Part shown: positions 22-12,617 of the stretch, piece after piece
How the letters are laid out: each line of letters opens with the position of its first letter
Position numbering within the stretch: position 1 is the first letter of the stretch
Assembly (NCBI GenBank): GCA_027028665.1
Contig: JALVIU010000189.1
Location: 1 to 12,617, forward strand
Reading direction: 5' to 3'
DNA: 12,617 bases
Source: Candidatus Atribacteria bacterium
GTDB taxonomy: Bacteria > Atribacterota > JALVIU01
Translations under genes and position numbers: made by a program
The notes under the pieces: generated by a model
Database searches by the model: none
The model's input: only the letters and a program-made list of their open reading frames with translations
Told to the model about the DNA's origin: nothing

Positions 22-1110
22 ATGAAAAAGCTTTTCATTTTTACTCTAGTATTGATATTCGTGGTTTCACTTTTTGGCATGGCTTACGCAAAGGACAAAC
101 CCCTTAGAGTAATCCTCCTTATAAATGGAACATTGGGGGATAAATCCTTTTTTGATTCTGCTGCACGTGGTGTAAAGAGGGCAGAAAAAGAATTGGGTAT
201 TGAAGCAAAGATTGTAGAGCTTGGTTATGATCCGTCTACATTTAAGCCAGGACTTGAAGATGCTGCAGATTCTGATTATGATATTGTCATCTGCGGTACA
301 TGGCAGATGCAGGAGGCATTACAGGAGATAGCACCTGAATATCCTGATAAGAAGTTTATTATATTTGACACATCAGTGGATTATAAACAGGGCGATCTTG
401 ATAATGTTTACTCCATACTTTATAAGCAAAATGAAGGCTCTTTCCTGGCAGGTGCACTTGCTGCTATGGTAACAACATCAAAGGAACTCCCTGATACGAA
501 TCCACAAAAGCTTATAGGGTTCTTGGGGGGTATGGATATCCCTGTAATTAATGACTTTTTGGTAGGATATATTGAAGGTGCAAGATATATAGATAAGGAT
601 ATGAAGGTACTTATCTCTTATGCAGGTAGTTTTTCCGATCCCGCAAAGGGAAAAGAGCTTGTACTTGCACAGTATAGACAGGGTGCAGATATCTCCTTTA
701 ATGTTGCAGGAGAAACAGGCCTTGGCCTCTTGGATGCGGCAAAAGAGGCAAAGAAGTATGCGATAGGGGTAGACTCTGATCAGGCAATGCTATTTAAGGA
801 TTCTGATCCAGAGAAAGCACGAAGAACTCTTACGTCAATGCTTAAGAGGGTAGATAATTCTTTGTATAGGGCGCTTTATTACCATCTGCAGGGTAAACTT
901 CCCTATGGTAAGGCAGAAGCATTAGGACTTGCCGAACAAGCAGTAGGTCTTGCAAAGAACGAGTTTTATAGAAAGTATGTACCAAAGGATATTCAAGCAC
1001 AGATTGCTTTATTAGAAGAAAAGATTATTTCTGGCAAGATAAAGGTAGATACCGCATTTGGCATGGGGCAGAAGGAGCTTAGCAAGCTAAGAAATAGCGT
1101 AAAACCATAA
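22..1110 (+). CDS. BMP/PnrA-family ABC transporter substrate-binding protein
   Basis: Periplasmic receptor that binds a small molecule, in this family usually a nucleoside, and hands it to the permeases encoded just downstream. Residues 1-23 form a Sec signal peptide (Lys-Lys, hydrophobic core, AYA cleavage site). No lipobox cysteine follows, so the mature protein should be soluble rather than a lipoprotein. The rest is one periplasmic-binding fold of normal family length (362 aa). Family landmarks are NGTLGDKSFFDSA (35-47), GVDSDQ (249-254) and TSMLKRVD (271-278); in PnrA-type proteins equivalents of the last two help hold the ribose. The first motif is usually GDKSFN, so Phe44 replaces a common Asn in the ligand pocket and the base recognised may differ. 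The ATG follows a strong AGGAGGTG 4 bp upstream. Family assignment is firm; the ligand is inferred. Confidence 0.93.
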   Translation: MKKLFIFTLVLIFVVSLFGMAYAKDKPLRVILLINGTLGDKSFFDSAARGVKRAEKELGIEAKIVELGYDPSTFKPGLEDAADSDYDIVICGTWQMQEALQEIAPEYPDKKFIIFDTSVDYKQGDLDNVYSILYKQNEGSFLAGALAAMVTTSKELPDTNPQKLIGFLGGMDIPVINDFLVGYIEGARYIDKDMKVLISYAGSFSDPAKGKELVLAQYRQGADISFNVAGETGLGLLDAAKEAKKYAIGVDSDQAMLFKDSDPEKARRTLTSMLKRVDNSLYRALYYHLQGKLPYGKAEALGLAEQAVGLAKNEFYRKYVPKDIQAQIALLEEKIISGKIKVDTAFGMGQKELSKLRNSVKP

Positions 1111-1127
1111 TTGATATATTCTACGGA

Positions 1128-1156
1128 ATAAGGGGCCTTTGGGCCCCTTATCTTTT
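1128..1156 (+). terminator. Intrinsic terminator or attenuator between binding protein and ATPase genes
   Basis: A perfect 10-bp stem (ATAAGGGGCC paired with GGCCCCTTAT) closes a 4-base loop TTTG and is followed by CTTTT. This is a standard Rho-independent layout. The downstream gene starts 13 bp later without a recognisable promoter, so I infer partial readthrough: an attenuator that leaves more mRNA for the binding protein than for the membrane complex. It could also protect the 3' end of a processed binding-protein mRNA. Confidence 0.8.
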
Positions 1157-1168
1157 AGGAGGTTATTT

Positions 1169-2725
1169 ATGGAAACTCCCATACTCGAAATGAGAGATAT
1201 TGTAAAAATTTATCCAAATGGTGTGATGGCCAACAAGGGTGTAAATTTCAAAGTAATGCCTGGTGAAATTCATGCCCTTTTAGGTGAAAATGGTGCAGGC
1301 AAGACAACACTTATGAATATCTTATTTGGACTTCAAGCTCCTACATCTGGAGAGATATTCTATAAAGGAAAGAAGGTAAAGATTGCAAGTCCTCATGATG
1401 CAATAAGGCTGGGAATAGGTATGGTGCACCAGCACTTTATGCTTGTTCCATCCCTTACAGTTGCTGAAAATATAGTTTTGGGGATGGAACCTAAAAGGGG
1501 AGTATTTTTCTCTAAAGAAGATGCATATAGAATAACAAAAGAGATAGGAGAAAAGTATGGGCTTGAAGTGCCACCAAAAGAAAGGGTTCAGGATCTTCCA
1601 GTAGGAATAAGACAGAGAATAGAGATCCTTAAGACCCTTCTTAGGGGTGCAGAACTATTGGTATTAGATGAGCCTACTGCTGTACTTACTCCTCAAGAGA
1701 CAGAGGAGCTCTTTGATGCCTTGAAGAAGCTTGTTTCTCAGGGAAAGACTATTATTTTTATTACACATAAATTGCGAGAAGTAAAGGAGATAGGTGATAG
1801 GATAACTGTACTTAGGAATGGAAAAAATGCAGGAGAGGCCCTGGTAAAGGATGTGACAGAGGAAGATATGTCTCGTATGATGGTGGGGAGAGATGTAGAG
1901 CTTATAATTCACAAAACCCCTTCGAAACCTGGAGAAGTTATTCTTCATGTAGAGAATATAGAATACACCCCTCCTGGACATAATAAGCTATTAAAAGGTA
2001 TATCTTTTTCGGTAAGGGAAGGGGAGATTCTAGGAATCGCAGGTGTAGAAGGAAATGGACAGAGAGAGCTTATAGAAATTTTGACAGGGCTTAGGGAAGG
2101 AGACAGTGGAAGTGTAAAAGTGAGAGGAAAGGAGCTCTTTGGTGCAACGCCGAGAGAGATAAGACTTGCATCTGTTGCCCATATTCCTGAAGATAGAATG
2201 GCAAGAGGGGTTGCGGCCCTTGCGAGTATAGAAGAAAATCTTGTTGTAGATAGATATTTTCTACCACCATTTTCAAAAGGAAAGTTTTCCATCGATGTAA
2301 AGAAGATTCATGAGAATGGTGAAAAATTGGTAAAAGAATTCGGCATTAAGGCTAAAAGTTCTGTAGTCCCTGTAGAAATGCTTTCAGGTGGTAATATACA
2401 AAAAGTAGTTGTAGCGAGGGAGTTTACATCGAATGCAAAGCTTATAATAGCTAATCAGCCTACCCGTGGAATAGATGTAGGTGCTACAGAATTTATAAGG
2501 AATAGACTTGTTGATGAAAGAGATAGGGGAGCTGCTGTGCTTTTGGTTTCTGCAGATCTGATGGAGGTAATGCAACTTTCAGATAGGCTGATAGTAATGT
2601 ATGAAGGTGAAATAGTAGGTTATTTTGATAGTCTTGATGGATTAACGGAACAGGAATTGGGTAAATATATGTTGGGCATAAAAAAGGATGCGCCGGAGAA
2701 GATTAAGGAGGCAGTGGTATCATGA
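1169..2725 (+). CDS. Nucleoside-type ABC transporter, double ATP-binding protein
   Basis: Cytoplasmic ATPase with two fused nucleotide-binding domains that powers the BMP-type importer; 518 aa, normal for the YufO/RbsA-like group. Domain 1 has Walker A GENGAGKT (39-46), signature LPVGIRQ (143-149) and Walker B ending in D167-E168. Domain 2 has the degenerate P-loop of this group, GVEGNGQ (292-298), a good signature LSGGN (405-409), and NQPTRG where DEPT would stand (N429, Q430). Its own hydrolytic site is therefore probably inactive; this degeneration is usual in the group. I chose ATG 1169, which lies 5 bp after AGGAGGT. A longer in-frame reading from 1139 would start inside the terminator hairpin and has no ribosome-binding site. 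The stop overlaps the next start (ATGA). Confidence 0.94.
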
Positions 2726-3783
2726 AAAAAACATCTTCCTTCGAGTTCATAAGAATTTTAGTAGCCATTGGAATCTCTTTAATATTGGGATTCTTGCTTA
2801 CTCTTTTATTGAGTAAAGATCCTATACATGCTTATAAATATTTTTTGTATGGACCTTTATCCAAAACACGAAGAATTATAGAATTTATAAATAATTCTGT
2901 GCCTCTTATATTTACAGGTCTTGCTGTATCCATTGTCTTTAAAGCAGAGCAATTTAATATAGGGGCAGAAGGTCAACTTTTTATAGGAGCTGTAGCGGGA
3001 ACGGCAGTTGCGATACTTTTTCCTCATATTCAAATTCTCCATATCATTCTTGTTTTTATAGCCGCTATGATCGCAGGTATGTTATGGGCAGCTGTACCTG
3101 GGATTTTAAAATCTAAGTTAAATGCAAGTGAACTGGTATCATCTCTTATGATGAATTATGTAGCCTTCTATCTGGGGCTATATTTTGTTAATTATTATTT
3201 AAGAGATAAAAATGCAGGTTTTTTAGTGTCCTATAAGTTTCCTAAAACTGCGTGGTTGCCATATTTGTATCGAAGGTATCATTTTCATTATGGAATAATT
3301 GTTGCCCTGGTGTTTGTAGTTTTGGTATGGTATCTCTTATATAGGACAAAAATAGGGTATGAAATAAGAATGATAGGTTATAATTTGAAGTTTTCAGAAG
3401 CAGGTGGTATAAATGTCCCTAATACTATATTCTCTGCTCAAGTGATAAGTGGAGCTGTTGCAGGAATTGCAGGTGCTATTGAAGTTACAGGATTATATCA
3501 TAGGTTCCTATGGCAAAATCTCCCTGGATACGGTTTTGATGGAATAATTGTTGCCCTTCTTGCGAGAAATAACCCTATTGGTGTTCCTTTTGCAGCTTTG
3601 TTTTTGGGTTATCTACGTACAGGTGCAAGGATTATGGAAAGGCAATCTGATATGTCTGCTGAGATGGTAACGGTACTTCAGGCCTTTGTAATTCTTCTGG
3701 TAACTGCCCAGGCCTTCCTCTCTACCTGGAAGCAAAGGATGATTGAGAAGGCATCAAGGAAAGAGGAGGAAGAAAATGAATGA
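2722..3783 (+). CDS. ABC transporter permease 1 (BPD_transp_2, nucleoside type)
   Basis: Inner-membrane permease of 353 aa, one half of the channel of the BMP-type importer. It is strongly hydrophobic, with a first membrane segment at about residues 9-30, several more segments after it, and a charged C-terminal tail rich in Lys and Glu. The cytoplasmic coupling region around residues 217-235 (MIGYNLKFSEAGGINV and what follows) is the counterpart of the G-x-N-xx-A-A-x-x-x-GI region in sugar and nucleoside permeases that contacts the ATPase. The start overlaps the ATPase stop by 4 bp, and the end overlaps the second permease by 8 bp, so the three genes are translationally coupled. This is the longer of the two permeases, as is usual for these pairs. 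Confidence 0.92.
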   Translation: MKKTSSFEFIRILVAIGISLILGFLLTLLLSKDPIHAYKYFLYGPLSKTRRIIEFINNSVPLIFTGLAVSIVFKAEQFNIGAEGQLFIGAVAGTAVAILFPHIQILHIILVFIAAMIAGMLWAAVPGILKSKLNASELVSSLMMNYVAFYLGLYFVNYYLRDKNAGFLVSYKFPKTAWLPYLYRRYHFHYGIIVALVFVVLVWYLLYRTKIGYEIRMIGYNLKFSEAGGINVPNTIFSAQVISGAVAGIAGAIEVTGLYHRFLWQNLPGYGFDGIIVALLARNNPIGVPFAALFLGYLRTGARIMERQSDMSAEMVTVLQAFVILLVTAQAFLSTWKQRMIEKASRKEEEENE

Positions 3784-4711
3784 GATATTAAAAGGTATAC
3801 TAACACCTGCTTTCGTATATTCTATTATAAGGGTAACTACTCCTATCCTTTTTGCAGCACTTGGTGCACTTATTACAGATCTTGCAGGGGTAATTAATAT
3901 TGCGTTAGAGGGTATAATGCTTACAGCTGCCTTTTTCGGAGTACTTGTAAGCGCCTTTACGCAGAATATGTGGTTAGGACTTTTGGCAGGTGTATTAAGT
4001 GGTGTGGGCATTGCCCTTATATTAGGTTATTTCTCCCTCAATCTTAAAACAGATCTTATTCTTGCAGGTATTGCAATAAATCTCCTCGCTTCAGGAGGAA
4101 CTATATTCTTGCTTTATATATTTGCAGGGGATAAAGGGACATCAAGTTCTTTAAAAAGTCTTGTACTCCCCAATATTAATATTCCTATCTTAAAGGATAT
4201 ACCTATACTTGGCCCCATGTTTAGTGGTCATCATATCCTTACATATATAGCTATAATTTCTGTAGTAATTGTGCACTATTTCCTATATCATACCCCTTTA
4301 GGATTAAGATTAAGGGCAGTGGGTGAGAATCCAGATGCCGCAGATTCTGTAGGTATCTCAGTTATAAAAATCAAATATATAGCCCTTATGTTAAGTGGTA
4401 TATTTGCAGGGCTTGGTGGTGTGCATCTCTCTATGGGATATGTTTCATGGTTTGCCCGTGACATGACATCAGGACGTGGATTTATTGCGCTTGCTGCAGA
4501 AACTTTAGGAGGAAGAACAGCTATCGGCACCACTCTTGGTTCTCTGGTTTTTGGTGCCGCAGATGCCCTATCTTATTCTCTTCAAGCATTTAGAATGCCT
4601 TCTGAGTTTGCACAAAGTTTCCCCTTCATTATAACTATACTTGCCCTTGGATTTTATGCGCAACAGCAGATATCAAGGGCAAAGAAAAGAAAAGCTGCAA
4701 GTAGGAGGTAG
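3776..4711 (+). CDS. ABC transporter permease 2 (BPD_transp_2, nucleoside type)
   Basis: Second channel subunit of the same importer; 311 aa with about eight to ten hydrophobic segments. The coupling motif RAVGENPDAADSVGI (180-194) is the classic ATPase-contact loop of this family. It is followed by the glycine-rich helix ALMLSGIFAGLGGVHLS, also typical. I chose ATG 3776, which has GAGGAGG 5-6 bp upstream inside the end of permease 1. A longer in-frame reading from 3743 would add only a basic, unhydrophobic stretch that reflects the neighbour's frame. The Lys/Arg-rich C-terminus fits a cytoplasmic tail. Confidence 0.92.
   Translation: MNEILKGILTPAFVYSIIRVTTPILFAALGALITDLAGVINIALEGIMLTAAFFGVLVSAFTQNMWLGLLAGVLSGVGIALILGYFSLNLKTDLILAGIAINLLASGGTIFLLYIFAGDKGTSSSLKSLVLPNINIPILKDIPILGPMFSGHHILTYIAIISVVIVHYFLYHTPLGLRLRAVGENPDAADSVGISVIKIKYIALMLSGIFAGLGGVHLSMGYVSWFARDMTSGRGFIALAAETLGGRTAIGTTLGSLVFGAADALSYSLQAFRMPSEFAQSFPFIITILALGFYAQQQISRAKKRKAASRR
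4702..4709 (+). promoter_or_regulatory. Shine-Dalgarno that fixes a TTG start
   Basis: TAGGAGGT lies in the last codons of permease 2, with GGAGG ending 5 bp before TTG 4714. No ATG or GTG stands at a usable distance, so this site supports the TTG start of the AIR-synthase-like gene and ties its translation to that of the permease. Confidence 0.75.
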
Positions 4712-4713
4712 TA

Positions 4714-5469
4714 TTGAACTTTTTGAAGATAGATAAGATAAGAGATCTTTCCCTTATAGATCTGGAAGATAAGTATATAGTAATAGCTGTGGATTCTTTT
4801 GGTGGTATAGGGCCTAAGGTAAATGATGTGGTAAAGCTTTCAATAAGAGAATGGGCAATTGCCTTATTACGTGTTCCTCTTATGGAGGTTATAGCATCAG
4901 GCGCCTATCCTTTTCTTGTGATAGATGCCCTTGGTGTAGAGTATGAACCTACAGGAAGACAGGTTGTAGAGGTGCTTAAGAGTGAACTTTCCAGATTAGG
5001 TTATTTAAATATACATATAAATGGGAGTACAGAGGATAATATCCCTGTAAGCTCTTCCGCTGCAGGAATTGTGGTACTTGGTCTTGCAGAGAAAGATCGA
5101 TTTTATCCAGGAACCACTTTAAATGGAGATGAATTATTTTTGGTAGGTGTGCCAAAGTCAGGACCTAATGAAAATATAAATCTAAGAGATGACCCAGAAA
5201 TACCAGATATATTAGATCTTATTTCACTTAGAAAGATAGATGGAATACATGATATATTACCTGTGGGTTCCCATGGAATTCTATATGAAGCCTTACAGAT
5301 GGCGGATACTGCTAAGCTTTCCTTGTCGCTTGCTTTTGATATACAGATAGATATTAAAAAGAGCGCAGGACCATCTACTTGTTTTCTATTATCCTCTCTT
5401 CTTCCCAAAGAAGAAATAGAAAGATATGTAACCGCACCTGTCTTCCAGTTGGGTAAATTTATAAATTAG
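4714..5469 (+). CDS. AIR synthase (PurM)-superfamily protein, possible alpha-ribazole kinase
   Basis: Cytoplasmic ATP-binding protein of the PurM/ThiL/SelD/HypE superfamily. The N-terminal half has the metal/ATP-binding pattern DSFGGIG (27-33) and the superfamily's glycine/acid stretch NGSTEDN (103-109). The C-terminal half has the AIRS_C-like strand GDELFLVGVPKSGP. The DS-GGIG-K and GSTEDN style resembles AIRS-like alpha-ribazole kinases (CblS) of cobamide salvage more than ThiL. HypE is unlikely because its C-terminal Cys tail is absent. At 251 aa it is clearly shorter than PurM or ThiL (about 325-345 aa). It begins with TTG 2 bp after permease 2, so it very likely acts on what that importer brings in. 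Superfamily is firm; substrate is a hypothesis. Confidence 0.72.
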   Translation: MNFLKIDKIRDLSLIDLEDKYIVIAVDSFGGIGPKVNDVVKLSIREWAIALLRVPLMEVIASGAYPFLVIDALGVEYEPTGRQVVEVLKSELSRLGYLNIHINGSTEDNIPVSSSAAGIVVLGLAEKDRFYPGTTLNGDELFLVGVPKSGPNENINLRDDPEIPDILDLISLRKIDGIHDILPVGSHGILYEALQMADTAKLSLSLAFDIQIDIKKSAGPSTCFLLSSLLPKEEIERYVTAPVFQLGKFIN

Positions 5470-5482
5470 AGGTAAGTAATTT

Positions 5483-6361
5483 ATGAGTGATATAAAGATG
5501 GATAAGGAACTTTATCAGAAACTTTTAAGATTTCAGAAGCAGGAAATTACTGAATATATAGTATATAGGGAATTATCAAAGTCTGCTACTTCAAAAAATA
5601 AAGAGGTACTAAATAAGATATCCAATGATGAGAAGAGACATTATAATGAATGGAAAAAGTATACAAAAAAAGATGTAGAACCTGATAAATTTAAAGTGTT
5701 TTTCTACCTTACAGTATCCAAGATATTTGGGATTACATTTGCTGTAAAAATGATGGAGAATTTAGAGAAAGGTGCTGAGGAGGCATATAGCTATATAGTA
5801 GACAAAATAGAACCTGCAGATTCTATTTTAAAAGATGAAATAGAACATGAAAGACTCCTTATTAATATGATAAATGAGGAGCGAATAAACTATATTGGCT
5901 CTATGGTTCTTGGTCTAAATGATGCTCTGGTGGAGCTTACAGGTGCTCTTTCAGGCCTTACCTTTGCTTTGCAAAATACCAGTACAGTAGGTATTGCAGG
6001 ACTTATAACAGGAATTGCTGCATCTTTGTCTATGGCAGCATCAGAGTATCTGTCTCAGAAATCTGAAGGAGGTAACACAAGCCCTTTAAAGGCATCTATA
6101 TATACAGGTATCGCATATATATTTACTGTACTTTTTCTCGTCTTTCCGTATTTTGTTTTTTCCCATTATATGATTGCCCTATTATTTACTCTTATCAATG
6201 CCTTTATAGTTATTTTTTTGTTTTCCTTTTTTGTCTCAGTGGTAAAGGATTTAAGGTTTAAATCTATATTTATTGAGATGTTTCTTATAAGTTTTGGTGT
6301 ATCGTTTTTGTCTTTTGGCATAGGGATTCTGGTAAGAAAGGTATTTCATATAGAAATATAA
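5483..6361 (+). CDS. Ferritin-like domain fused to VIT1/CCC1-family metal transporter
   Basis: Membrane protein of 292 aa, likely moving Fe2+ or Mn2+ out of the cytosol. Residues 8-130 form a four-helix rubrerythrin/ferritin-like domain with two ExxH metal motifs (E50-H53 and E119-H122) plus E21 or E24 and E95 or E99 as further candidate ligands. Residues 136-292 are a VIT1-type membrane domain. It opens with GLNDALVELTGALSG (144-158), continues with SMAASEYLSQKSE (183-195), and then has three hydrophobic segments. The order and motifs match MbfA-type proteins, in which the di-iron domain is thought to feed or gate the transporter. It sits 13 bp after the AIRS-like gene with AGAGGT 9 bp before its ATG, so it is probably cotranscribed, although the functional tie is unclear. 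Confidence 0.88.
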   Translation: MSDIKMDKELYQKLLRFQKQEITEYIVYRELSKSATSKNKEVLNKISNDEKRHYNEWKKYTKKDVEPDKFKVFFYLTVSKIFGITFAVKMMENLEKGAEEAYSYIVDKIEPADSILKDEIEHERLLINMINEERINYIGSMVLGLNDALVELTGALSGLTFALQNTSTVGIAGLITGIAASLSMAASEYLSQKSEGGNTSPLKASIYTGIAYIFTVLFLVFPYFVFSHYMIALLFTLINAFIVIFLFSFFVSVVKDLRFKSIFIEMFLISFGVSFLSFGIGILVRKVFHIEI

Positions 6362-6379
6362 AATATTATTTTATTTTTT
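6359..6379 (+). terminator. Weak AT-only hairpin with T-run
   Basis: TAAAA and TTTTA can pair across 5 bases, directly followed by six T. It sits at the stop codon of the VIT1 gene, where the upstream transcription unit should end. The stem has no G-C pair, so termination here is a weak proposal only. Confidence 0.25.
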
Positions 6380-6408
6380 AGACATAACCTTTATTTATAT
6401 GCTATAAT
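6379..6408 (+). promoter_or_regulatory. Sigma-70-type promoter for the kinase/V-ATPase unit
   Basis: TAGACA (6379-6384, five of six bases of the -35 consensus) is 18 bp from a perfect TATAAT (6403-6408). The -10 is preceded by TG at 6400-6401, giving an extended -10. It lies in the only sizeable intergenic gap and points at the kinase gene about 55 bp downstream. In AT-rich DNA such matches can occur by chance, but the combined elements and the position make it likely. Confidence 0.68.
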
Positions 6409-8372: not shown

Positions 8373-8382
8373 AAGGGGTGAT
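8373..8382 (+). promoter_or_regulatory. Shine-Dalgarno that fixes the TTG start of subunit H
   Basis: AAGGGGTGAT pairs with the 16S 3' end (one base short of AAGGAGGTGAT) and lies 4 bp before TTG 8387. An upstream in-frame GTG at 8378 is inside this site and so cannot use it, which argues for the TTG start. Confidence 0.65.
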
Positions 8383-8386
8383 TCTA

Positions 8387-8703
8387 TTGGATAAAAAGGA
8401 TGTTATAAAAGAGGTAAAGGAAACAGAGGAAAGAGCGCGTCAAATTGTAAAAGATGCCAAAAAAGAAGCACGTATGATTATTGATAAGGCTCATAGTGAT
8501 GTAAATGCCATGTGGAATGATGCAAAGAATCAGATGGCATTAAAGAGGAAAGAGATGCTAAAAGCAGCAGAAAAAGAAGCAGATAGAGATATTTCAGAAC
8601 TTGAGAATAAAAAAGAGGCGGAAAAACGGGAGCTTGTAAAAAAGGCACGAAGCAGAAAGGAAAAAGCAGTAGATTTTCTCTTTAAAAAGGTGGTGAATCT
8701 CTG

Positions 8704-8704
<1 letters not shown>
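8387..8704 (+). CDS. V/A-type ATP synthase subunit H (G), peripheral stalk
   Basis: Small peripheral-stalk protein of 105 aa that pairs with subunit E to hold the catalytic head still. It is almost one continuous charged helix, rich in Lys, Glu and Ala, with Ala or small residues at regular spacing as in the right-handed coiled coils of subunit H/G. There is no membrane segment and no other domain. Sequence alone would not identify so simple a coiled coil, but first place in an H-I-K-E-C order and the size match archaeal-type operons. The TTG start is supported by its Shine-Dalgarno; a GTG 9 bp upstream would add three residues. Its TGA overlaps the ATG of subunit I by one base. Confidence 0.8.
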
Positions 8705-11155
<2,451 letters not shown>

Positions 11156-11164
11156 GCAGGTGAT

Positions 11165-11761
11165 ATGTCATTAGAAAATATCTTGTCAGAGATATTAAAA
11201 GAAGGTGAAGAAGAGAAATTAAATATAATTAGAGATGCCAGAGAAAAGGCAGATAATATATTGGCAAAGGCTAAGAGAGAAATAGAGGAATACAAGGAAA
11301 GCGAAGAAGAAAAGATAAAGAAAGAGAGCCAGGCTGTGAAGGAACGTATTATCACAGCATTTGAGCTGGAAAGGGAAAAGGAACTTTTAAAGACAAAAAA
11401 GGAACTTCTTGATGGTGTATTTCAAGGGGTTTTAGAAAAGATAGTTTCTTTACCCAAGGAAGAATATCTTGCCTTTCTTGCAGGACTCATTTTAGAATAT
11501 GCACAAACAGGGAGAGAATTATTGTATCTTTCAGATCGTGACAAGAATCTTGTGGATAAAGCATTTTTGGATGATGTAAATAAGAAACTAAAAGAGAAGG
11601 GTAAGGCAGGAAATGTAAAATTAGCAGAAGAATCTGTTCCTATATCCGGAGGCGTTATACTTGGTGCAGAAAAGATCAGGATAAATGCCTCTTTGGAACT
11701 TATATTAGAAGATGCAAGAGAGAAATGGGAAAAAGAGGTAGGGCAGATTCTTTTTTCTTAA
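11165..11761 (+). CDS. ntpE: V/A-type ATP synthase subunit E, peripheral stalk
   Basis: Peripheral-stalk subunit of 198 aa that partners subunit H and caps the catalytic head. Residues 1 to about 95 are a long Lys/Glu-rich helix, preceded by the typical start LENILSEILKEGEEE with ARE-KA repeats. Residues about 96-198 are the small alpha/beta domain, with SGGVILGAEKIRINASLE near the end matching the family's GGxxL-x(5)-I-N-x-(S/T)-L pattern. Length is standard. GGAGG lies 8 bp before the ATG, and most of it sits in the hairpin at the K-E junction. Confidence 0.9.
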   Translation: MSLENILSEILKEGEEEKLNIIRDAREKADNILAKAKREIEEYKESEEEKIKKESQAVKERIITAFELEREKELLKTKKELLDGVFQGVLEKIVSLPKEEYLAFLAGLILEYAQTGRELLYLSDRDKNLVDKAFLDDVNKKLKEKGKAGNVKLAEESVPISGGVILGAEKIRINASLELILEDAREKWEKEVGQILFS

Positions 11762-11780
11762 AAAGTAAATATGTGAAAGG

Positions 11781-11798
11781 TGGTATAAAGTGATACCA
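11781..11798 (+). promoter_or_regulatory. Small hairpin with the subunit C GTG start in its loop
   Basis: TGGTAT (11781-11786) pairs with ATACCA (11793-11798). The six-base loop AAAGTG carries the GTG start, and the 5' arm overlaps the end of the AAAGGTGG ribosome site (11776-11783). It could slow initiation on subunit C, but a 6-bp stem is modest and may be coincidental. Confidence 0.4.
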
Positions 11799-12617
11799 GG
11801 AGAATCTGTTTTATCCATAAATAGAGATAGAGGTTTTAGCTTTATAGGTGGGAAATTAAAAAAGCAAGAAGGTGCTTTACTTTCTCCTCAAAAGCTTGAG
11901 AGGCTCATTGAGGCAGAGAATGAAGATGAATTTATAAGGAATTTTTTTGAGATAAGATGGTTTAGGAAAAACTATGAGATCCACTCTATGGATCAGTTTG
12001 AGGAGAAACTATACGAAGACCTACAGGATAACTTATTTGAATTTGTCCATGTTATCCCAGATATAAGGGTGTTAGATATTGTAAGATTAAAATACGATTT
12101 TCACAACCTAAAACTCTTATTTAAAAAGAGGATGAAAAACGCAGAACCAGAAGGACTCTATCTGGGATTGGGGAGTATACCCCTTGAACAGCTTGAAACT
12201 GCATTTGAAACAAAGAATTATACAGCCCTTCCGAAGGAGATCTCAAGAGTTATATCAAGGGTTGAGGCAAAGATAAAGGATGATGATATAAAGAAGTTGG
12301 AGATGTTTTTGGATAAGGAAAGGTTTGGTTTGACCTTTGAGATGATAGGGGAGATAGGGAATGATTATCTATTTAGACTTTATACAATTATAGTAGATCT
12401 TACAAATATACTTATATTTGCACGCTGTAAGGTCACAGGACTGGATAGAGAGGTTTTCTGGGATGCCTTTATTCCCTATGGAACCCTGAAGAGAGAGGTT
12501 TTAGATAATCTTTATGATGCCCCATTATCTGTGGCATCATCTACTCTAGGAGGGAAATTTTACCTTTCACCAATTCCTCCGAGGACAAAGAGGGAGGATG
12601 TTGTAGTAGATGGTTTT
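11790..12617 (+). CDS. ntpC: V/A-type ATP synthase subunit C, 3' end beyond window
   Basis: Central-rotor subunit that links the catalytic shaft to the membrane ring (yeast subunit d counterpart). The reading frame is open for 276 codons to the last base with no stop; family members run to about 330-350 aa, so about 60 residues should be missing. The visible protein is acidic and mostly helical. DIVRLKYDFHNLKLLFKKR (about 96-114) matches the first conserved helix pattern of the family (D-hydrophobic-L-x-D-x-x-N-hydrophobic-K-x-hydrophobic-L-K). DYLFRLYTIIVDLTNILIFAR (about 193-213) is its repeat in the second half. GTG 11790 is chosen because it follows AAAGGTGG; the upstream ATG 11771 is immediately followed by TGA. 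It lies 28 bp after subunit E. Confidence 0.87.
   Translation, partial: MIPGESVLSINRDRGFSFIGGKLKKQEGALLSPQKLERLIEAENEDEFIRNFFEIRWFRKNYEIHSMDQFEEKLYEDLQDNLFEFVHVIPDIRVLDIVRLKYDFHNLKLLFKKRMKNAEPEGLYLGLGSIPLEQLETAFETKNYTALPKEISRVISRVEAKIKDDDIKKLEMFLDKERFGLTFEMIGEIGNDYLFRLYTIIVDLTNILIFARCKVTGLDREVFWDAFIPYGTLKREVLDNLYDAPLSVASSTLGGKFYLSPIPPRTKREDVVVDGF

Follow-up and report, generated by a model that had tools for sequence, protein, structure and literature searches.

Alpha-ribazole is the ribonucleoside of dimethylbenzimidazole (a benzimidazole riboside), and the alpha-ribazole kinase CblS is usually encoded together with its own transporter. In the salvage systems of Listeria, Geobacillus and lactobacilli this transporter is CblT, an S-component of the energy-coupling factor (ECF) type, and the transporter genes lie directly upstream of cblS. 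In Firmicutes, CblS plus CblT were reported as an alternative to CobT (PMC6461909; PMC6167548), and the content of an operon on an L. plantarum plasmid was given as CblT, CblS, CobS and CobC (PMC6722938). The PnrA/TmpC-BmpA importers, a different group of described systems, consist of a receptor with a nucleoside pocket, an ATP-binding cassette (ABC) ATPase with two domains and two BPD_transp_2 permeases. In BmpA, two aromatic residues clamp the base and Asp/Asp/Lys engage the ribose (PMC13325309). Here we describe an operon of Candidatus Atribacteria bacterium (Atribacterota) in which a complete importer of this second type is followed by a gene for a predicted CblS-type kinase. The window, i.e. 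the whole stretch of 12,617 nucleotides that was analysed, is contig C189 (JALVIU010000189.1) of a draft genome of 1.79 Mb (413 contigs, 89.9% complete). The operon probably salvages alpha-ribazole, which would be taken up by the nucleoside importer in place of CblT. Kinase and importer each join known families, and what is new is their pairing; no paper describing an ABC importer for alpha-ribazole was found in the open-access literature (most subscription papers were not covered). The genes and signals of the operon are as follows.

22-1110, + strand: BMP/PnrA-type nucleoside receptor, 362 amino acids, with an N-terminal signal peptide and without a lipobox cysteine (PF02608, 3.6e-59; relatives in the PDB are Lbp, TmpC/PnrA and BmpA; aromatic sandwich and ribose-contacting residues conserved)
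1169-2725, + strand: ABC ATPase with two ABC domains, 518 amino acids from ATG 1169 (PF00005 in two stretches, ABC_tran 3e-48; Shine-Dalgarno sequence AGGAGG at 1157-1162)
2722-3783, + strand: permease 1, BPD_transp_2 (PF02653, 5.4e-43)
about 3776-4711, + strand: permease 2, BPD_transp_2 (PF02653, 8.6e-42), grouping in a tree with permeases of nucleoside-hydrolase operons
4703-4708, + strand: Shine-Dalgarno sequence AGGAGG of the kinase gene, within the last two codons of the permease 2 gene
4714-5469, + strand: predicted CblS-type alpha-ribazole kinase, 251 amino acids, TTG start (tree, alignments, conserved residues, predicted structure)

Open reading frames, Pfam matches (Bmp receptor, double ABC ATPase, two BPD_transp_2 permeases) and the AGGAGG motif agree with a reading made earlier from the sequence alone (hereafter the sequence-only reading), which had described a complete BMP/PnrA-class importer and, 2 bp after the stop codon of permease 2, the start of a PurM-superfamily gene whose Shine-Dalgarno sequence lies inside the permease gene. 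The superfamily call was right too, if marginal when based on one sequence: single-sequence searches with the 251-residue protein gave AIRS (PF00586) at E=0.067, under the family cut-off, no NCBIfam match (thiL included) and no PDB match by sequence. Its AlphaFold2 model (mean predicted local distance difference test score 96) was matched by Foldseek to SelD, ThiL and archaeal aminoimidazole ribonucleotide (AIR) synthetase with E about 1e-12 at no more than 18% identity. As modelled, the protein thus has the PurM-superfamily fold, which it has in common with ThiL, SelD, HypE and AIR synthetase (PurM). In the tree, however, these proteins are separate from the shorter window kinase, which lies inside the CblS clade with a 98/96 split from E. 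coli ThiL, PurM, HypE and SelD (row L182 of this tree is a wrongly chosen open reading frame and is to be disregarded). The alignment with 29 other CblS proteins showed that the kinase keeps all 19 residues invariant among them and 31 of 33 near-invariant ones, the changed positions being Cys26 (Val) and Thr120 (Val). Its identity to CblS proteins is 24-49%. The evidence argues strongly that the protein is a CblS by descent; its activity on alpha-ribazole is predicted from membership in this family.

Gene neighbourhoods point in the same direction. Scanning the contigs of species genomes with the kinase as a single sequence gave nothing, and an alignment profile gave matches, namely 55 cblS loci in Bacillota, Atribacterota, Actinomycetota and others. 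Most of these loci have a CblT-type S-component gene directly upstream of cblS, and several that lack it lie in cobQ/cbiP-cobU-cobS-cobC operons. Also in the family are the Listeria gene flanked by eutP/pduV and cobU-cobS-cobC, and the gene of the L. plantarum plasmid operon cblT-cblS-cobS-cobC. Homologues with about 30% identity to the window kinase are present in nine other genomes of the phylum; in all seven of these Atribacterota loci whose sequence reaches far enough upstream, a cobalamin riboswitch (RF00174, 108-133 bits) comes first, then an ECF S-component gene (PF12822/PF07155) and then the cblS homologue. Tree and neighbourhoods together bear out the choice of CblS over ThiL in the sequence-only reading; grouping with ThiL was not seen. 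The nearest tree rows of the window kinase are Bacillota CblS proteins (weak support, 83/79), and the other Atribacterota CblS proteins form a clade of their own that is not sister to it; the window gene therefore probably arrived separately from theirs. Its nearest kin are found in six Bacillota loci (L243-L248, from genomes G146, G337, G457, G220, G276 and G300) where the CblS protein carries a long N-terminal extension and the next gene encodes an ECF-type ATPase; CblT usually comes ahead of cblS, and several of the loci also have a GntR-type regulator. These clusters are possibly self-contained alpha-ribazole ECF cassettes.

The further genes expected for cobamide nucleotide-loop assembly, whose co-occurrence the sequence-only reading had proposed as a check, were partly present in the source genome; a lack of cobamide genes, which that reading had named as refuting, was thus not seen either. 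CobU adjoins CobS on contig C202; CobT was not found by a PF02277 search of the draft genome, nor was CblT with a profile at E<=0.01 that gives complete members of the phylum E<1e-65. Because CblT was searched for and not found, the window operon does not represent a CblT-CblS system, even though it shares with one the kinase family, the transporter genes immediately 5' of the kinase gene and a genome with CobS and CobU in which CobT was not found. That CblT would be unworkable for lack of ECF machinery was considered and rejected, as EcfT-type proteins (CbiQ/EcfT homologues) are present in the source genome. Among 50 genomes of the phylum, CobS occurs in 44 (source genome included), CobT (PF02277) in 19 and CblS, by strong profile matches, in ten; other CblS matches are weak and concern longer paralogues. 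CblS and CobT were found together in none of the 50 (Fisher p 0.008, uncorrected for kinship). Neither protein is present in 21 of the genomes, most of which have CobS. The exclusion is not strict in Bacillota, where some loci read cobT-cblT-cblS; in L266, L267 and L271 the three genes stand in a row, so that both routes of lower-ligand activation adjoin. Two known cobalamin riboswitches of the source genome were evaluated as parts of the importer-cblS operon and rejected, as the one on C166 leads into the start of a cbiF-like gene and the one on C403 into BtuFCD.

The importer resembles the PnrA/TmpC-BmpA systems in its components and pocket and differs from them in being encoded with an alpha-ribazole-type kinase, its own ligand being a prediction. 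Alignment to BmpA showed that the receptor keeps the aromatic sandwich (Phe43, Phe204) together with Asp116, Asp251 and Lys275; on the base side, Asp19 and Asn28 of BmpA correspond to Asn35 and Phe44. The score against the model of a putative B6 ABC transporter (NF047927) was 72.6 bits, below its cut-off of 400. In a tree of permease 2 the window protein lies within a clade (95/94 and 100/99) with nine Bacillota members, whose genes after permease 2 encode a nucleoside hydrolase (seven cases), ribokinase plus purine nucleoside phosphorylase (Vallitalea) or DeoC plus ribokinase. Because of this clade and the operon content of the relatives, the window importer is, by descent, a nucleoside importer. 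The operons concerned (L238, L239, L274-L280) hold its closest relatives and have the same gene order through permease 2. They differ in what follows: the window cblS gene occupies the slot where most of them carry a nucleoside hydrolase gene.

As alpha-ribazole is a ribonucleoside, pairing a nucleoside importer with a 5'-kinase for nucleosides, in that order, is coherent. In the proposed pathway, the BMP receptor would capture ribonucleosides, alpha-ribazole among them, and the two permeases and the double ATPase would carry alpha-ribazole into the cell. There the CblS-type kinase would use ATP to convert it to alpha-ribazole-5'-phosphate, which CobS, encoded elsewhere, would join to the adenosylcobinamide-GDP (AdoCbi-GDP) made by CobU. 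In this lineage without CobT, the importer would thereby take over the role of CblT, the S-component of ECF type. It may be dedicated to alpha-ribazole, its predicted ligand, or be general.

The arrangement with a BMP-type importer in CblT's place, which the sequence-only reading had singled out as different from known systems, was indeed found, and it recurs in one other genome. The Bacillota genome G209 (locus L299, 3310-12852) carries on one strand genes for a LacI-type regulator, ribokinase, BMP receptor, ATPase, two permeases, two nucleoside hydrolases, CblS and an ADP-ribosylglycohydrolase. Here both a nucleoside hydrolase and CblS follow the importer, cblS starting 10 bp after the second nucleoside hydrolase gene. 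Identities to the window proteins are 57% for the receptor, 57% for the ATPase and 42 and 48% for the permeases. No CblT and no Rfam riboswitch were found in 19 kb of this locus, and a search of 400 kb at the start of the genome (about 12% of it, hence uninformative) gave no cob genes. The G209 CblS has a long N-terminal extension, and genes for cytidine deaminase and pyrimidine nucleoside phosphorylase are nearby. With cblS present in 86 of 398 sampled Bacillota genomes and about a dozen importer operons, the gene is unlikely to have come to lie only a few genes away from one of them by chance (<1%, a rough estimate). When 37 CblS genomes were searched whole, close relatives of the window receptor (E<1e-80) were present in three of 11 without a linked CblT vs none of 26 with one (p 0.02, a post hoc comparison concerning unlinked loci).

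This recurrence bears on the possibility that ordinary ribonucleosides are the importer's only cargo, a rearrangement or horizontal transfer having brought cblS to its place downstream, and alpha-ribazole entering by another way or being released intracellularly. Such an accident would fit the link of the importer clade to nucleoside hydrolase, DeoC, purine nucleoside phosphorylase or ribokinase in nine of nine Bacillota tree members, the probably separate acquisition of the window cblS and the density of the window, where the neighbours are unrelated (VIT1, histidine kinase, V-ATPase). It would leave the shared gene string in another phylum to chance, and ordinary nucleosides could be handled in the source genome by other BMP-type receptors, of which it has at least three; we consider it unlikely.

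A kinase with a changed substrate, acting on some other ribosyl compound that is imported (a nucleoside or one of its breakdown products), appears less probable still. Both gene strings are nucleoside operons, and in G209 cblS stands after nucleoside hydrolases and before ADP-ribosylglycohydrolase; the window kinase also has a long branch (1.57) and the two substitutions at near-invariant positions. Against this, all invariant residues are kept, Val26 is present also in another CblS (L081), and without CblS there is no visible route in the genome to an alpha-ribazole phosphate for CobS.

Salvage of alpha-ribazole through the window importer has to be weighed against the following observations. 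An importer and cblS in the same gene string were found in one other case (G209) among roughly 85 CblS loci; cblS adjoins a BMP importer in none of the 55 GTDB loci and in none of nine Atribacterota loci, and G209 is the sole importer-linked case among the best 30 cblS loci of the 398 Bacillota genomes. Moorella (L066) does have a BMP cluster, at about 2.5 kb on the 5' side of cblT-cblS, yet its cblS has cblT right next to it. Relatives of the importer serve nucleoside catabolism, G209 included, and those linked to catabolism share Asn35 and Phe44 (motif GDKSFFDSA). An orthologous importer occurs in genome G037 together with CobT and no detectable CblS, in a genome that is 76% complete and on a contig that ends just after permease 2. 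The absences of CobT and CblT in the source genome rest on a draft that is 89.9% complete. No cobalamin, purine or other riboswitch was found within the window, whose contig starts 21 bp 5' of the receptor ATG, the operon's upstream region beyond these 21 bp not being in the assembly. Finally, spacing is tight at other junctions of the window too; since it is equally so there, the 2-bp gap before the kinase gene by itself says little about joint function.

A pocket specialised for benzimidazole was considered and rejected, as the changes at BmpA positions 19 (Asp to Asn) and 28 (Asn to Phe) are also found in importers linked to nucleoside catabolism; because relatives carry them, Asn35 and Phe44 are features of a branch, not peculiar to the window protein. 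Of the candidate alpha-ribazole importer in the sequence-only reading, the nucleoside-importer type and the CblS partner stand; its dedication to this cargo does not follow, the closest relatives being encoded with nucleoside hydrolases, purine nucleoside phosphorylase or ribokinase and sharing both residues.

A broader proposal is put forward tentatively and is open to considerable doubt. In it, a branch of BMP-type ABC importers might form a second, non-homologous class of alpha-ribazole transporters that replaces CblT and is dedicated to that cargo in the window genome. Members would be linked to cblS in the window genome and G209, and unlinked in CblS bacteria without an adjacent CblT (Vallitalea, a Firmicutes metagenome-assembled genome, Fenollaria).

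Two further features of the region lie between or beyond the genes discussed so far.

1127-1152, + strand: G+C-rich RNA hairpin between the receptor and ATPase genes (fold -21.8 kcal/mol, z -2.84), with a short T-rich tail
5483-6361, + strand: rubrerythrin/VIT1 (MbfA-like) membrane protein, 13 bp 3' of cblS (PF01988, 2.3e-12)

The hairpin is a possible attenuator or mRNA stabiliser, and more receptor than transporter may be made as a result. The ATPase gene probably does not start at TTG 1139, because ATG 1169 is preceded by the AGGAGG at 1157-1162. The importer genes and cblS are presumably co-transcribed, possibly along with the VIT1-like gene, whose product is a putative transporter of iron or manganese; among the promoter-like sites of the region, the best (6379-6408) lies 3' of this gene. 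A V/A-type ATPase operon (8378-12617) runs on into contig C123 (L028) via an overlap of 127 bases. Elsewhere in the source genome, parts of a second BMP importer (L029, L030; contigs C183 and C370 of G000) lie near dihydropyrimidinase-like and xanthine-dehydrogenase-like genes, and L226 (788-2179; G000:C126) encodes a BMP receptor domain (residues 134-413) after an N-terminal thioredoxin-like stretch, adjoining an adenine-deaminase-like gene. Near the Atribacterota orthologues of the window receptor, no purine or other riboswitch was found.

If alpha-ribazole is salvaged as proposed, CblS-dependent salvage would extend to Atribacterota, a phylum in which CblS never co-occurs with CobT among 50 genomes. 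Alpha-ribazole, a cross-fed building block of B12, would then have a second class of importer, hidden under the annotation of nucleoside transporters. For bacteria that are CblS-positive and CblT-negative, genome-based predictions of cobamide dependence would accordingly need to take nucleoside ABC importers into account.

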